Of a stretch of DNA of 62,690 nt, positions 17,171 to 45,520 are shown piece after piece (the stretch's first letter is position 1; every line of letters starts with the position of its first letter). Under the pieces are notes generated by a model that was not told the origin of the DNA, ran no database searches, and saw only the letters and a program-made list of their open reading frames with translations. Made by a program: the position numbers and the translations under genes. The stretch spans positions 1-62,690 of the IMG/VR virus record IMGVR_UViG_3300023296_000161; one strand, written 5' to 3'. The DNA comes from a virus.

Positions 17171-18349
17171 ATGAACACCGCAACCGCTGAAGTTGTATAC
17201 CTCAAAACCACAGAAGAATACGTTGGAATTAAAATAGACAGAACAAAAGATCAATCTCTGTCAGAACAAGCTAAGAAGTTACTTACAGATTATTACCAGA
17301 CAAAGGATGAAATATCACCACAACAGGCATATGCACGAGCAGCGGTTGCGTATTCATATGGTGACATGGAACTTGCCCAGAAGATTTATGATTATGTAAG
17401 TGATGGTTGGTTTATGTTTGCTTCCCCGGTCCTATCCAATGCTCCTATGCCGGGTGAGAAGACACGAGCTCTTCCTATCTCCTGTTTCCTCACATATGTT
17501 CCTGATACCCTTGAGGGTTTGATTGACCATTCTGCTGAGTTGCGTTGGTTGTCAGTCAAGGGTGGTGGTGTTGGTGGACATTGGAGTGATGTTCGTGCAG
17601 TGTCAGATAAAGCACCCGGTCCTATGCCATTTATCCATACAGTAGACGCTGACATGACCGCATATCGTCAGGGGAAGACCCGTAAGGGGTCATATGCTGC
17701 ATACATGGACATCTCCCACCCTGATATTATTGAGTTCCTAAACATGCGTATACCCACAGGAGACGTGAATCGTAAGAACCTTAATTTGCATCATGCAGTG
17801 AATATTAGCGATGCGTTTATGCGAGCAGTAGAACGTGATGAGATGTGGGATTTGGTTGATCCAAATGAACAAGATGCCCGTGACAGTATGAAGGCTAGAA
17901 AATTATGGGAAACTGTGTTGGAGACACGTTATCGCACAGGTGAACCATATCTTAACTTCATTGATACAGCCAACCGTGCATTACCACAGACCATGAAAGA
18001 TAAAGGATTAAAAATCAACGGGTCTAACCTGTGTCTTGTGGGTGATACAAAACTTGATTGTATTATAGACGGCGATCCCTGTTTTGGGGTTACACTTGAA
18101 TATATTTGCAAACAGAGTTTTGCTGCTGATGTTAAAGTTCTGTCCTATAATGTGGAAACTGGTGAAACTTCCTATCAAAGAGTATTATCTGGTTCGTTGA
18201 TGAATAATGATGCTGATTTGATTCGTATTGAGGATGAAGAAACTGGCAACTTTATTGAATGCACCCCCGACCACAGAGTATTCACAAAAAATCGTGGGTA
18301 TGTAAAGGCTGAGGATTTGAACGAGGATGATGATCTTGTCTTTGGTTAG
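17171..18349 (+). CDS. nrdA: Ribonucleotide reductase large subunit, N-terminal part fused to N-half of a split intein
   Basis: 392 residues. Residues 1-287 are the NrdA N-extein, with the redox Cys at 105 in SCFLTYVPDT. At residue 288 (base 18032) the intein starts with CLVGDTKL (block A, Cys1) and continues to block B (ECTPDHRVFT). The protein ends after 105 intein residues at LVFG. The C-half of the intein and NrdA are at 19081. Splicing in trans would join SNL to CNEI, so the first C-extein residue is the catalytic thiyl-radical Cys (E. coli C439). GGAG precedes the ATG. Confidence 0.9.
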   Translation: MNTATAEVVYLKTTEEYVGIKIDRTKDQSLSEQAKKLLTDYYQTKDEISPQQAYARAAVAYSYGDMELAQKIYDYVSDGWFMFASPVLSNAPMPGEKTRALPISCFLTYVPDTLEGLIDHSAELRWLSVKGGGVGGHWSDVRAVSDKAPGPMPFIHTVDADMTAYRQGKTRKGSYAAYMDISHPDIIEFLNMRIPTGDVNRKNLNLHHAVNISDAFMRAVERDEMWDLVDPNEQDARDSMKARKLWETVLETRYRTGEPYLNFIDTANRALPQTMKDKGLKINGSNLCLVGDTKLDCIIDGDPCFGVTLEYICKQSFAADVKVLSYNVETGETSYQRVLSGSLMNNDADLIRIEDEETGNFIECTPDHRVFTKNRGYVKAEDLNEDDDLVFG

Positions 18350-18384
18350 ATAATAGTAGATGGATTTCTATAGATTTGTTTTAT

Positions 18385-18392
18385 TATAAATA
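18385..18392 (+). promoter_or_regulatory. T4-type late promoter for the homing endonuclease gene
   Basis: Exact TATAAATA in the gap between the N-intein stop and the endonuclease ATG (18437). Confidence 0.7.
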
Positions 18393-18436
18393 TAAGTATA
18401 ACAAGAAATCCATCTACTCATCTATCGGGGATTAAT

Positions 18437-19078
18437 ATGAAATACACAACATATCTATTAACATCTAAAACATCCGGCAAACAATATGTGGGATATAGTT
18501 CAAAGGGTGTATCAGCGAGATTGCACAAACACCATATTAATGCTAAACGAGGTCAGCAGACGCATTTATATAATGCGATACGATTATATGGTATAGATGA
18601 TTTTTCATCAAAGATATTGTGGGAAGGTCGTTCTAAAAAGAAAGCAACTGATATGGAAAAGTTCTATATTAAAAATCTTGATACTTATGTGAATGGGTAT
18701 AATCAAAGTCTTGGTGGTGATGGTGGATATTGTGTTCCCCCAGAGAAACGAGATGAGTTTTATAAAAATCATAGTAGGATGATGAAAGGAACGAATAATC
18801 CCAGATATATTAATGTTGATGACGAAACACTGCTTGAAGGCGCATATTCTTATTTTAAAGAACATGGTGTATTACCATTATATCACTGGTTTATATATAG
18901 TAAAACTCTTGGTTTTCCCACAAGTTATGCGCTGTGTAGATTTGAAGATTTGGGTGGTGGCAGAGTGGGATTTAAAAATTCTATGAAGAAAAAATATGGG
19001 TTGTGTGACGATGACTTTAAATATGTAAAAACTAAAGAACACAAACAAAAACTAGCAGAAGCAAGTAGGAGAAAATAA
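18437..19078 (+). CDS. GIY-YIG homing endonuclease inside the split nrdA locus
   Basis: 213 residues. The GIY-YIG core is YLLTSKTSGKQYVGYS near residues 6-21, followed by conserved R and H (RLHKHH) and E at about 74. LGGDGG and a basic C-terminal helix follow. Enzymes of this class cut an intein-free allele and drive copying of the insert. It is a free-standing gene between the two intein halves, with its own late promoter and CGGGGATT as ribosome binding site. This matches the published 'fractured gene' arrangement of split inteins in environmental phages. Confidence 0.8.
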   Translation: MKYTTYLLTSKTSGKQYVGYSSKGVSARLHKHHINAKRGQQTHLYNAIRLYGIDDFSSKILWEGRSKKKATDMEKFYIKNLDTYVNGYNQSLGGDGGYCVPPEKRDEFYKNHSRMMKGTNNPRYINVDDETLLEGAYSYFKEHGVLPLYHWFIYSKTLGFPTSYALCRFEDLGGGRVGFKNSMKKKYGLCDDDFKYVKTKEHKQKLAEASRRK

Positions 19079-19080
19079 TC

Positions 19081-20127
19081 ATGGCCTTAAAAATAACGAA
19101 ACTAACTCAGCGCCGGCCCGTATATGATATTACTGTAGAGAACAACCACAACTTTTATGCTAATGGTATTGTTGTGCATAACTGTAATGAGATTCACCTT
19201 CCTACTAATGAAGATCGCACTGCTGTGTGTTGTTTGTCATCTGTCAATCTGGAGAAATTTGATGAATGGAAGGATACTACAATGATTCGTGATCTTATTC
19301 GATTCCTAGATAACGTCCTTCAGTTCTTCATTGACAATGCGGGTGATGAAATCAGTCGTGCTCGTTTCTCTGCTACACAAGAACGTAGCCTTGGTTTGGG
19401 TGCAATGGGATGGCATTCTTATTTGCACAAGCATCGTATCCCCCTTGAGTCTCCATCTGCTGTGGTTAAAAACATTCAAATCTTTGAACATATTAAATCA
19501 GAAGCAGTTGCAGAGACAGAACAACTTTCAAAGGAACGTGGTGAATGTCCAGATATGAAGGGTACAAGAAGGCGCAATTCTCACCTATTGGCAATTGCAC
19601 CTAATGCAAACAGTTCAATCATCTGTGGCACGTCGCCATCTATTGAGCCCAGTAAGGCAAATGCATATACGCACAGAACCCGTGCTGGTTCCCATTTGGT
19701 TAAAGATAAATATCTTGAAGAGGAATTGGAGAAGATAAATAAGAATGATGCAACAACTTGGAGTTCGATTATCACTAATGGTGGTTCTGTTCAACACCTA
19801 AGTTTTCTGTCATCAGAGGTAAAGGATATATTCAGGACTGCTATTGAAATTGACCAAAACGCAATCGTTTCTCAGGCTGCTGATCGGCAACAGTTTCTAT
19901 GTCAGGGTCAGTCATTAAATGTGTTCTTTCCAGCAGGCGCATCGAAGGCAGACCTACATAAAGTACACTACAATGCTTGGAAGTTGGGTTGTAAGGGATT
20001 GTATTATCTTCGTACAGAAACCTCAGCCAAAGCAGAGAATGTGTCAACCAAAATAGTGCGTGATGCATTGAAAGATTACGAAACACAAACAATGACACAA
20101 GAGGAGTGTATAGCATGTTCGGGATAG
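19081..20127 (+). CDS. nrdA: C-half of split intein fused to ribonucleotide reductase large subunit C-terminal part
   Basis: 348 residues. Residues 1-34 are the intein C-half: VYDITVENNHNFYA (block F) and GIVVHN (block G, His-Asn). Cys+1 follows at base 19183. The C-extein (314 residues) begins CNEIHLP, carries the redox Cys in AVCCLSSVNL, the Tyr pair in GLYYLRT for radical transfer, and a C-terminal CIACSG redox pair. The spliced NrdA would be 601 residues. The start follows GGAG, 2 bases after the endonuclease stop. Confidence 0.9.
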   Translation: MALKITKLTQRRPVYDITVENNHNFYANGIVVHNCNEIHLPTNEDRTAVCCLSSVNLEKFDEWKDTTMIRDLIRFLDNVLQFFIDNAGDEISRARFSATQERSLGLGAMGWHSYLHKHRIPLESPSAVVKNIQIFEHIKSEAVAETEQLSKERGECPDMKGTRRRNSHLLAIAPNANSSIICGTSPSIEPSKANAYTHRTRAGSHLVKDKYLEEELEKINKNDATTWSSIITNGGSVQHLSFLSSEVKDIFRTAIEIDQNAIVSQAADRQQFLCQGQSLNVFFPAGASKADLHKVHYNAWKLGCKGLYYLRTETSAKAENVSTKIVRDALKDYETQTMTQEECIACSG

Positions 20128-21616: not shown

Positions 21617-21645
21617 GTATTATAATATTAACTGGGGGTATGTTG

Positions 21646-22416
21646 ATGGGGTATATATACAAAACATTAAATGTAACTAATAATAGGGTTTATATTGGTA
21701 AAAGTCATAAAAAAATATTTGATGAAAATTACTTTGGTTCTGGAATGTTGCTGCGTCAATCAATAAAAAAACACGGCAGTACTGATCATTTAATTGTTTC
21801 TATTATTGAATATTGTGATAATAGTGATATAGATGATAGAGAAATATATTGGATTGACAAATATAAATCTAAATTTGGTGATTTGATATACAATTTATCA
21901 GAAGGTGGTTCGGGCGGAAACACAAATAAATATAAATCACCAGAAGAAAGGAATAAAATATATAAACGCATATCAAAGAAAACTATTGGGAGAAAAGATT
22001 CGCCAGAAGTAAAATTGAAAAAATCAATATCAGCTAAAAAAAGAATAATAGATTTTCCTAACACATTACCGGACAATAAAGGAAGAATTCATGAGAGGAG
22101 TGGTTTAGAAAATATACGAAATGGGATAAAAAAAAGAATTGGTGAGATGACTATAACTGATGGTGTAAATGAAAAAAAGATTATGAATGAAATTGATATT
22201 CCTGATGGTTGGCAAAGAGGGAGAAGCAATGCGTTTAAAAATAAATCGAGGGGGAGAACAATGAGTGTTGAATCTTCATCTAAAAAATCAAAACATTTTA
22301 CTGGAAAAATTAGAATCACAAATAAAGTGGAAAATAAATGGATTTGTGGGGGACAAGAAATTCCAGCTGGATATATAAGAGGAATAACAAAAAGGGGTGA
22401 CATGATATGCAAATAA
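21646..22416 (+). CDS. GIY-YIG homing endonuclease inside the split nrdB locus
   Basis: 256 residues if read from the ATG at 21646, which has GGGGG 7 bases upstream; the ATG at 21640 has the GGGGG too close. The GIY-YIG core is GYIYKTLNVTNNRVYIGKS. The C-terminus carries two modules of the type ITDGVNEKKI...IPDGWQRGR and ITNKVENKWI...IPAGYIRGI, which in T4 Seg-like enzymes bind DNA. The gene ends 10 bases inside the C-intein gene. Codons are more A/T-rich than in the neighbours, which suggests separate ancestry. Confidence 0.8.
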   Translation: MGYIYKTLNVTNNRVYIGKSHKKIFDENYFGSGMLLRQSIKKHGSTDHLIVSIIEYCDNSDIDDREIYWIDKYKSKFGDLIYNLSEGGSGGNTNKYKSPEERNKIYKRISKKTIGRKDSPEVKLKKSISAKKRIIDFPNTLPDNKGRIHERSGLENIRNGIKKRIGEMTITDGVNEKKIMNEIDIPDGWQRGRSNAFKNKSRGRTMSVESSSKKSKHFTGKIRITNKVENKWICGGQEIPAGYIRGITKRGDMICK

Positions 22417-43978: not shown

Positions 43979-44306
43979 TCAAACCTCAGCGCAAGAAACA
44001 ATTCCAGCACCAGAATATTTAGAAACCCTGCCGGAATTTACTTTGTTAAATAAACCCGTAGTATGTGGGCCCACGAAAGCAATTCTTGACAAAATTGCAG
44101 AGTTTAATGAAACCCCGGCCGCTGCATGGATTGATGCAGAACGAGGTGATACTGTTATGTTCTATATAAACGAGAACACGGGCACAACTACCATAGTAGA
44201 ACAGTCGGGTGAAATAATGTGTATTATCAGTCAGGGAATGGGTGGAGTTGTAGTTGCGCCTCCAAAAAAAATTAAAGGGTTGCCAATAAAGTACTTGACA
44301 TTCTAG
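43932..44306 (+). CDS. Small exported protein
   Basis: 124 residues in another frame inside the end of the exonuclease gene, from the ATG at 43932. The signal peptide MKHLIAILAVFLLLGSQTSA is clear, with cleavage after about residue 20. The mature part has two Cys (VVCGPT, IMCIIS) that may form a disulfide. Its end overlaps the next promoter. The function is unknown; a periplasmic product is predicted. Confidence 0.6.
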   Translation: MKHLIAILAVFLLLGSQTSAQETIPAPEYLETLPEFTLLNKPVVCGPTKAILDKIAEFNETPAAAWIDAERGDTVMFYINENTGTTTIVEQSGEIMCIISQGMGGVVVAPPKKIKGLPIKYLTF

Positions 44307-44340
44307 TCTGGGTGTGGTATTGTAAGATATCATTTGATGA
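44288..44340 (+). repeat. Duplicated promoter segment, copy 1
   Basis: This stretch is a near copy of 44514-44566: AAAGTACTTGACATT, TAGTCTG, TGGTAT, TAAGATA and ATTTGATGA occur in the same order and spacing. Copy 1 drives the small membrane gene at 44379; copy 2 drives the tmRNA. Confidence 0.75.
44295..44323 (+). promoter_or_regulatory. Early sigma70-type promoter
   Basis: TTGACA at 44295-44300, 17-base spacer, TATTGT at 44318-44323. It lies in duplicated segment copy 1. Confidence 0.7.
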
Positions 44341-44378
44341 GGAGATTAATATGGTAATAGAAATATCGGGAGATTCAG

Positions 44379-44513
44379 ATGAAGAACCCCTTAGTAAAAA
44401 AAATATCAGTGTTAATGTTTAAGCTATACCTTATATGGAGTGTATGTGCTGATATTCTATTGATTTCTGGTATTATTGCTTTACTTCTTGGTTATGGTAA
44501 AATTTCTTTTTAA
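44379..44513 (+). CDS. Small membrane protein
   Basis: 44 residues, GGGAG 6 bases before the ATG. A basic start (MKNPLVKKISVLMFK) is followed by one membrane segment (CADILLISGIIALLLGYG). I recall similar small proteins in other T4-like marine phages. A 23-codon frame at 44351 after GAGGAG overlaps its start and could be a leader. Confidence 0.5.
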   Translation: MKNPLVKKISVLMFKLYLIWSVCADILLISGIIALLLGYGKISF

Positions 44514-44566
44514 AAAGTACTTGACATTTTAGTCTGAATATGGTATAAATAAGATACAATTTGATG
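44514..44566 (+). repeat. Duplicated promoter segment, copy 2
   Basis: Copy of 44288-44340. The main change turns the -10 region into TATAAATA, so this copy has both sigma70 and late-promoter features. Confidence 0.75.
44521..44551 (+). promoter_or_regulatory. Hybrid sigma70 / late promoter of the tmRNA gene
   Basis: TTGACA at 44521-44526, 17-base spacer, TATAAATA at 44544-44551. The expected start near 44556 fits the start of the acceptor piece. Confidence 0.8.
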
Positions 44567-44618
44567 ATACGAATTGATAGCTGAACTGGACGGGGCTTCG
44601 ATGCCCCCACCTCCACCA
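44556..44618 (+). ncRNA. ssrA: Permuted tmRNA, acceptor (tRNA-like 3') piece
   Basis: The stretch ends in a T-arm (GGGGC-TTCGAT-GCCCC, 44592-44607), acceptor strand CACCTCC (44608-44614), discriminator A and encoded CCA (44616-44618). CACCTCC pairs with GGGGGTG at 45193-45199, giving 7 pairs with G-T at the third pair. That G3-U70 pair is the identity element for alanine charging. The order acceptor piece first, coding piece second is the permuted two-piece tmRNA of alphaproteobacteria. The T loop has only 6 bases, one less than usual. The 5' end is placed from the promoter. Confidence 0.85.
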
Positions 44619-44645
44619 AGTTAGAACCCTTGACTTCCACCTTTT

Positions 44646-44653
44646 TATAAATA
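44646..44653 (+). promoter_or_regulatory. T4-type late promoter for the HNH gene
   Basis: Exact TATAAATA in the tmRNA intervening segment, 27 bases before the endonuclease ATG at 44681. Confidence 0.7.
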
Positions 44654-44680
44654 GGTGTGAAAAGGGGGATAAGAAAGGAT

Positions 44681-45247
44681 ATGAAAACACAAACTATTGA
44701 ATGTTCTGCTTGTAATATTAGTTTTGATAAAGAATTGAAGGAAATTACAAGACAGAAAAAAAGGGGTAGAACCAACTTTTATTGTTCGCTTTCTTGTGCT
44801 GGAAAACCATCAAGATATAATCCTTGGGTTTCTAGCAAAGAGAACAAAGAAAATATCTCAAAATATTCTAATAATCGGGTTGATGAATATACTGATTTTA
44901 GGGAATATATGAGAAGGGCAAATAAAAGGGATAAGGTTGTTGATTTGGATTTACCTTACCTAAAAGAGTTATGGGAACTACAAGACGGAAAGTGTGCTTA
45001 CACCAAAGTCAAATTGGAACATCCAACAGCTATGCAATCTACTGAACGATATAATTATATGTCTTCGCTTGATAGGATAGACAACTCAAAGGGTTATATC
45101 AAAGGAAATGTTCAATATGTTAGTGTTTCTGTAAATTGGTTGAAGAACAGAATGGATGACAACCACCTAGCAGAGTTTTTTGAAATAGTTTCGGGGGTGA
45201 CATGGGATCGACAGGCAGGGACGGATGAGTGGAGAATTGTGGATTGA
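44681..45247 (+). CDS. HNH homing endonuclease inside the tmRNA intervening segment
   Basis: 188 residues from the ATG at 44681 (AAAGGA just upstream). A zinc-ribbon-like start (CSACNISF...FYCSLSC) is followed by an HNH-type core: KCAYTKVKLEH near residue 107 and SLDRIDNSKGYIKGNVQYVS near residue 130. It occupies nearly all of the segment removed from the permuted tmRNA precursor, and its last 18 codons and stop lie inside the tmRNA coding piece. It therefore does not break mature tmRNA, as expected for a mobile gene that has settled in a spliced-out spacer. Confidence 0.75.
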   Translation: MKTQTIECSACNISFDKELKEITRQKKRGRTNFYCSLSCAGKPSRYNPWVSSKENKENISKYSNNRVDEYTDFREYMRRANKRDKVVDLDLPYLKELWELQDGKCAYTKVKLEHPTAMQSTERYNYMSSLDRIDNSKGYIKGNVQYVSVSVNWLKNRMDDNHLAEFFEIVSGVTWDRQAGTDEWRIVD

Positions 45248-45340
45248 TCGCCTTATAGGTCAAAAACTATAGATGCAAACGATAACGTATCTTATGAGGA
45301 TTTTGCACTAGCTGCATAATCTTTCGGAGTTTTTTTGGGA
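45193..45340 (+). ncRNA. ssrA: Permuted tmRNA, coding (mRNA-like 5') piece
   Basis: It begins GGGGGTGACATGGGATCGACAGG split as acceptor strand GGGGGTG (45193-45199) and the conserved D-arm region (TGGGATCGACAGG). A hairpin region (TTATAGG...CTATAG) precedes the tag frame with the resume codon GCA at 45275. After the tag stop come TCTTTCGGAG and two T runs (45331-45337 and 45342-45348) that may end transcription. The 3' end is approximate. Mature tmRNA would form from this piece and the acceptor piece by pairing. The piece overlaps the end of the HNH gene. Confidence 0.88.
45275..45319 (+). other. tmRNA tag reading frame (ANDNVSYEDFALAA)
   Basis: GCA AAC GAT AAC opens the tag, and GCA CTA GCT GCA TAA closes it. 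The encoded peptide is ANDNVSYEDFALAA. AND(N) at the start and ALAA at the end are typical of alphaproteobacterial tags, and ALAA is the ClpXP degradation signal. So tagged proteins would be degraded, not merely released. Confidence 0.9.
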
Positions 45341-45392
45341 GTTTTTTTCTTAGCAACAGGATAAAAAACTTCCACTTTATTCAAAAAAGGTC

Positions 45393-45421: not shown

Positions 45422-45427
45422 CTGTAA

Positions 45428-45487
45428 ACAATGTCACTGATGAGTTTGTGAAATCCAAACGAAACACTTTGTGTCTGGCAATATTGT
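45428..45487 (+). ncRNA. Type I hammerhead ribozyme in the 5' leader
   Basis: All core parts are present. CTGATGA at 45437-45443. Stem II GTTTG/CAAAC (45444-45448 with 45456-45460). GAA at 45461-45463. Stem III ACAC/GTGT (45464-45467 with 45471-45474, loop TTT). Cleavage site after C45475. Stem I TGTCA/TGGCA (45432-45436 with 45476-45480, one G-T pair), extended by ACAA/TTGT (45428-45431 with 45484-45487) across an ATA bulge. Open ends in stem I make it type I. Self-cutting would remove the first 48 bases of the predicted mRNA and leave a 5'-OH end upstream of the gene at 45521. Confidence 0.9.
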
Positions 45488-45520
45488 CAAAAACATCATC
45501 TTGAAAGGATGAATTATAGT

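Follow-up and report, generated by a model that had tools for sequence, protein, structure and literature searches.

In fractured genes with split inteins, reportedly described by Dassa et al. in 2009, a homing endonuclease gene (HEG) lies between the halves of a product that is assembled in trans. As for RNA genes that work in pieces, two-piece tmRNAs are found in marine phages, i.e. Melnitz and its relatives (PMC9004378). The 2025 survey of tmRNAs (PMC11915505) describes tmRNA genes whose group I introns carry homing endonuclease genes; in the spacers of permuted genes it reports one tRNA gene and one repeat, and the word HNH is absent from it. Besides, the genes of I-TevI, I-TevII, I-TevIII, T4 segB and Aeh1 mobE share a late promoter placed in a hairpin that hides the ribosome-binding site (RBS) (PMC2988022).

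The window analysed here, meaning the whole stretch of 62,690 nucleotides, belongs to a marine bacterial virus, a T4-like phage and relative of Methylophilales phage Melnitz; its kinship with the Melnitz group rests on synteny and on the ribonucleotide reductase region, where the DNA is 72.9% identical over 36% of the query. Judging from its sequence, the phage very probably carries a functional-looking permuted two-piece tmRNA, whose discarded spacer would have been colonised by an HNH/EndoVII homing endonuclease gene.

All features of the locus are on the plus strand. The tmRNA promoter (44521-44551) is made of TTGACA (44521-44526), a 17-nt spacer and TATAAATA (44544-44551), a box compatible with the sigma70 -10 box and also with the T4-type late consensus; boxes of the TATAAATA type precede the acceptor piece in relatives too. 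The acceptor piece (44556-44618, with a putative 5' end), which forms the 3' part of the tRNA-like domain, was delimited by a partial match to RF00023, by covariation and by alignment to relatives. It ends with GGGGC-TTCGAT-GCCCC-CACCTCC-A-CCA: a T-stem (44592-44596 with 44603-44607) closed by an uninterrupted T-loop, then the acceptor strand CACCTCC (44608-44614), A at 44615 and CCA at 44616-44618. The 574 nt that separate this CCA end from the first acceptor-stem base (44619-45192) are expected to be discarded on maturation. The coding piece, supported by RF04321, RF00023 and near-identity to the related phage L166 after its nucleotide 12, occupies 45193-45319 with the acceptor 5' strand GGGGGTG, the D-arm, P2 and the tag frame; it extends past 45319.

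A first-pass annotation of this DNA had proposed a permuted two-piece tmRNA with the alanine-type G.U at the third pair and a tag frame at 45275. These three elements are indeed present: all seven acceptor pairs form between the two pieces, with G.U at pair 3, and the frame at 45275 reads ANDNVSYEDFALAA (45275-45316), followed by a stop codon at 45317-45319; the tag has the small/hydrophobic end used as a mark of membership. The two pieces are further joined by a P2 helix, CTG at 44586-44588 with CAG at 45212-45214, and the covariation across 27 phages and the P2a helix presented below also argue for the permuted gene. Downstream of it we observe a hammerhead-ribozyme-like motif (45424-45492; Rfam Hammerhead_3, 27.8 bits, below cutoff), which a TTGACA-17-TATACT promoter immediately precedes and the gene at 45509 follows. 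This motif is also conserved behind the tmRNA genes of L239 and L212 and shows a compensated change in stem II; its three-way fold is the minimum-energy structure for L212 only.

The Rfam model of permuted tmRNAs (RF04321, tmRNA_permuted) matches 45125-45319 with 49.9 bits (gathering score 47, E 7.9e-7), but as the spacer is too long for this model it misplaces the acceptor half onto the HNH ORF. RF00023 gives two separate partial matches, both below the gathering score, one reaching 44618, the acceptor end, with 21.0 bits (E 3e-6), the other beginning at 45193, on the coding piece, with 31.5 bits (E 1.1e-10). The model suggested at first reading as a check, alpha_tmRNA (RF01849), gave a divided answer: the window remains below its gathering score, whereas close relatives without the HNH gene reach 91-147 bits. 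The long spacer is the likely reason for this difference; the HNH-bearing L239, which is the same contig as L200, scores 54.1 bits. ARAGORN reported zero tmRNA on the window. As such genes can escape tmRNA finders, the number of tmRNAs in phages is probably underestimated.

Since the group I introns of tmRNA genes can carry homing endonuclease genes (PMC11915505), one might wonder whether the HNH gene is carried by an undetected intron and not by a permutation spacer. However, the ends of the insert coincide with the ends of the mature tmRNA, and the pieces stand in permuted order, as they do in relatives that lack the gene. With no intron family among the Rfam matches and a T-loop that is uninterrupted, this reading was rejected as extremely improbable.

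Degenerate tag patterns combined with a segment finder gave at least about 200 loci of permuted tmRNAs in phages, redundant entries counted. The spacer measures 3-200 nt in nearly all those listed, barring misplaced acceptors and the long-spacer cases; the outliers L192, L203 and L222 turned out to be false placements, the true acceptor being visible within the spacer of L192 and L203. When 27 of the permuted loci are spliced and aligned, the pairing of the two tmRNA pieces exceeds chance: over the acceptor stem, the T-stem and P2a, 99.5% of the cells are paired versus 81% in shuffles, and changes on both sides are seen in 11 of the 15 pairs. As the acceptor and T stems were search criteria and P2a was not, the evidential weight lies on P2a. 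This helix is paired at 98.8%, its three pairs all show both-side changes, and its score of 0.56, compared with 0.21 in shuffles, is equalled by no shuffle and falls to 0.17 or less when the strands are slid. The distal P2 helix ACAATT/AATTGT is paired in 27/27 sequences, but as swapped controls also pair (552/702) it was given no weight.

A tmRNA split by a free-standing endonuclease gene could be a broken relic, its pairing inherited and not maintained. The length of the spacer, far above the usual, and the T-loop of 6 nt (TTCGAT) instead of 7 would fit with this. Nevertheless T-loops of 6 nt occur also in phages without the gene, e.g. L018, and the seven acceptor pairs, the five T-stem pairs and P2a all form in the window. 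Moreover acceptor pair 7 of P1 is compensated between HNH-bearing phages, G-C in one and A-U in the other of the window and L239 with both sides changed, and the 4 differences found in the tag relative to L166 are all synonymous. A relic is thus very unlikely. The locus is not an assembly accident either, since it is 100% identical in two other contigs and since a homologue of the HNH gene is found at the same place in L200/L239, with 68% amino acid identity.

The endonuclease gene itself (44681-45247, 188 aa) starts with ATG at 44681 and stops at 45245-45247. It had been described as contained in the 574-base spacer; the gene is there, but the ORF overruns this segment, so that its last 55 nt overlap the tmRNA coding piece and its stop lies 55 nt inside it. 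The protein, which has a zinc-finger N-terminus, is recognised as an EndoVII-like HNH enzyme by PHROG profiles: phrog_3322 (E 6.9e-20), phrog_1035, endonuclease VII (E 1.9e-15) and phrog_3118, HNH (E 2.2e-13). Srd/sigma-decoy families are also among the profiles matched. The search of Pfam with this protein returned no match and that of PDB sequences nothing relevant; the AlphaFold model, computed from two input sequences, has a pLDDT of 39.6 and is unusable, hence the assignment of the fold relies on sequence profiles.

Between the window and L200 the dN/dS of the HNH gene is about 0.12, with synonymous sites near saturation, which points to strong purifying selection. This constraint (dN/dS about 0.12-0.20), along with profile matches that include the endonuclease VII and Srd/sigma-decoy families, might be taken to mean that the enzyme is no longer mobile and was recruited for a phage function (e.g. 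DNA processing or competitor exclusion), the tmRNA being a mere neighbour. On the other hand the gene is sporadic among close relatives, it adjoins tmRNA pieces in other lineages and its leader shows a control of the HEG type; a recruited function appears therefore quite unlikely, and a homing endonuclease gene settled in the spacer is the reading that we retain.

The late promoter initially attributed to the HNH gene was found again, TATAAATA at 44646-44653. It is contained in a leader hairpin (44628-44678; MFE -17.9 kcal/mol) whose z-score of -2.25 is of moderate significance and whose 3' arm extends into the ribosome-binding region, where it covers the Shine-Dalgarno region without burying a site cleanly. 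An RNA begun at the late promoter is without hairpin and unstructured. The leaders of HNH genes, taken from CCA to ATG, have the same organisation, with the late promoter in the loop or an arm of a hairpin and the Shine-Dalgarno in or beside the 3' arm. Hairpin z-scores range from -1.75 to -7.8 in 12 of these leaders, and the hairpin is missing from most RNAs that begin at the late promoter. The leaders of L367 and L372 are only 10-11 nt long, and no such leader hairpin was seen in L484, where the spacer gene encodes a LAGLIDADG enzyme (z -1.39). This organisation matches the one described for I-TevI, I-TevII, I-TevIII, T4 segB and Aeh1 mobE (PMC2988022); by analogy, the tmRNA precursor would not express the endonuclease, whose translation would be confined to late transcripts.

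The whole cycle might then proceed as follows. On the early precursor the leader hairpin would silence the endonuclease; processing of the tRNA type would cut after the CCA at 44618 and before 45193, so that the spacer would be lost and the two pieces would assemble by base pairing. Late in infection RNA polymerase would start at the 44646-44653 promoter; because this late RNA would be devoid of the 5' arm of the hairpin and of the acceptor piece, it would be translated and probably not processed at 45193. In phages infecting the same cell, the enzyme made in this way would nick or cut the tmRNA gene close to, or exactly at, the point where the mature coding piece begins, and repair would copy the endonuclease gene plus flanking tmRNA sequence. 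In the window, the copied block would have included the promoter and the acceptor piece, the resident acceptor piece being replaced.

The same genome contains other homing endonuclease genes. The nrdA gene (17171-20127) appears to be an example of the fractured genes mentioned above, and would be a second gene in pieces with an endonuclease gene in the gap: it looks split by a split intein, the ORF at 17171-18349 having the N-terminal intein part at its end and the ORF at 19081-20127 the C-terminal part at its start (both Pfam intein matches are below cutoff). A free-standing GIY-YIG endonuclease gene (18437-19078) lies between them, its late promoter being inside a strong hairpin (z -3.7). 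A second homing endonuclease gene of the GIY-YIG type (21640-22416) directly follows the nrdB/glutaredoxin ORF.

The arrangement of the window is not isolated. A classified list was drawn up by three search routes (a pattern made of the acceptor end and the late promoter, searches with HNH proteins, and tag scans), and lineages were counted after clustering the HNH proteins at 90% amino acid identity. An endonuclease gene in sense orientation occupies the spacer of a permuted tmRNA in at least 17 lineages, with three kinds of enzyme: the EndoVII-like HNH in 3 lineages (window, L200, L544), a HNH that we call HHIIPKHMGG, starting with MKHxHHIxPKHxGG, in 13 (L359, L362, L367, L372, L373, L374, L377, L380, L382, L384, L390, L399, L412), and LAGLIDADG in a single phage (L484; PF00961, E 6.5e-5). 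Mobile genes have thus settled repeatedly in this discarded segment. Although not designed to look for endonucleases, the tag scans by themselves returned at least 3 spacer cases (window, L200, L111); compared with the number of loci listed, this puts the frequency of endonuclease genes in spacers at a few per cent at most. In further lineages the HNH gene adjoins the acceptor piece from upstream (L545, L552, L554 and L556 by the classifier, L557 by eye). As numerous more distant relatives of both HNH families are not encoded near a tmRNA, the association between HNH and tmRNA varies among branches, from strong to absent. One scan of bacterial genomes for HHIIPKHMGG relatives gave four matches, one of them strong.

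Permuted tmRNAs devoid of endonuclease have small ORFs in their spacer, starting with MKNPLVKKISVLMFKVY or MFKWLSKTRLVVITRDYF (L132, L212, L198, L166; L001, L180), and some of these ORFs extend into the coding piece. The tmRNA spacer thus seems to host small genes generally.

In 8 of the 17 lineages (window, L200, L544, L377, L382, L384, L399, L412) the endonuclease ORF runs into the coding piece, with its stop codon 12-55 nt past the start of that piece. This overrun could suggest that tmRNA maturation and endonuclease expression are coupled: the cut at 45193 would remove the stop codon, yielding a non-stop mRNA that would be cleared by the tmRNA itself. However, the stop ends exactly 1 nt before the coding piece in seven lineages and 12-14 nt before it in two; the late mRNA, moreover, does not carry the acceptor piece needed for processing at 45193. 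Finally the overrun sequence is not conserved, so that lost stop codons are a simpler cause of the overrun. We consider such a coupling improbable and keep to a spacer simply colonised by the endonuclease gene.

Homologues with and without the HNH gene, whose comparison was advised by the first-pass annotation, do exist and agree with its interpretation. Present in the window and L200, the gene is absent from L166, L198 and L220, whose tmRNAs are near-identical, and it was gained independently elsewhere. Between the window and L166 the flanks, the acceptor piece as far as GGAC and the coding piece beyond nucleotide 12 are near-identical, but the T-arm, the acceptor ends and the initial 12 nt of the coding piece differ. 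These mosaic boundaries look like what co-conversion around an insertion would leave. The T-arms of the window and L200 differ from each other, and therefore a common co-conversion tract is not seen.

Upstream of the tmRNA promoter lies a remnant (44289-44340), which appears to correspond to an older tmRNA promoter with the first nucleotides of its acceptor piece (local alignment 47, versus a shuffle maximum of 28). It is fused to a small ORF region (44341-44513), membrane-protein-like and frame-shifted here (score 209 in alignment to L132), and this ORF is located within the tmRNA spacer in L132/L212 and L198/L166. The simplest order of events compatible with these sequences would be that a block formed by the promoter, the acceptor piece and the HNH gene entered downstream of the former spacer ORF and upstream of the coding piece, and that the former acceptor piece was largely lost. 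No promoter or acceptor remnant was seen upstream in L200 and L544.

The operator of I-TevI resembles its homing site (PMC2988022). In four HHIIPKHMGG leaders, a stretch of 9-12 nt recurs in the D-arm of the tmRNA of the same phage (p 0.002-0.006, uncorrected, 16 leaders tested), which hints at the target of these enzymes; in the window leader, the same search for a D-arm mimic found none (p 0.87).

HNH genes are also observed in antisense orientation, adjoining tmRNA pieces in L383, L386, L391 and L421. The resident acceptor piece is truncated in L383 and L421, two acceptor pieces are present in L386, and the resident tmRNA gene of L391 is cut after GGGGCTG. In L383 and L391 a complete second permuted tmRNA follows the antisense HNH gene and the resident pieces.

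It is conceivable, although the balance tilts somewhat against it, that two-piece tmRNAs of phages and homing endonucleases form joint mobile units: the enzyme would target tmRNA genes, bring a replacement acceptor piece (or a whole tmRNA), and the gene would be rebuilt from donor and resident parts. If so, the remnant in the window and the truncated pieces next to antisense HNH genes (L391, L383, L421) would be footprints of this process. The spacer was at first seen as a harmless home for a mobile gene; this holds only in part, since in other phages endonuclease genes also abut or rearrange tmRNA genes.

Altogether these data suggest that a permuted RNA gene offers selfish genes a safe site without any intron, ordinary tRNA processing being enough to discard the spacer. 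This would add a further type of HEG shelter to self-splicing introns, inteins and intergenic sites, and would tie two-piece RNA genes to mobility. In the open-licence papers searched, no report of an endonuclease gene in the spacer of a permuted tmRNA was found. Removable segments that shelter HEGs have been described before, as have two-piece tmRNAs of phages, whereas the two in combination, arising repeatedly, appear not to have been.

Compared with the closest systems, the window resembles Melnitz and the pelagimyophages (PMC9004378) by its permuted gene and by its neighbourhood of PhoH, PDDEXK nuclease, tmRNA, helicase loader and ThyX, and the Melnitz coding piece is 74.6% identical to that of the window; however, the spacer of Melnitz has 142 nt, with a small ORF only and no endonuclease gene. 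The tmRNA genes with LAGLIDADG in a group I intron (PMC11915505) also harbor a HEG in a segment that is removed before function, but in those bacterial genes the segment is an intron, self-splicing and located in the T-loop, whereas here it is a permutation spacer with an expected removal of the tRNA type, occupied across lineages mostly by HNH enzymes. T4 segB (PMC2988022) is likewise a phage HEG in an RNA-gene region, yet it lies between complete tRNA genes and not inside one. Aeh1 mobE and T4 I-TevI (PMC2988022) come close in that the HEG sits in a gene working in pieces or spliced, with the late promoter in a hairpin that hides the RBS, but their hosts are protein-coding and that of the window is an RNA gene. 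Likewise, the halves of genes fractured at split inteins are joined by protein trans-splicing, whereas those of the window tmRNA would be held together by RNA pairing.
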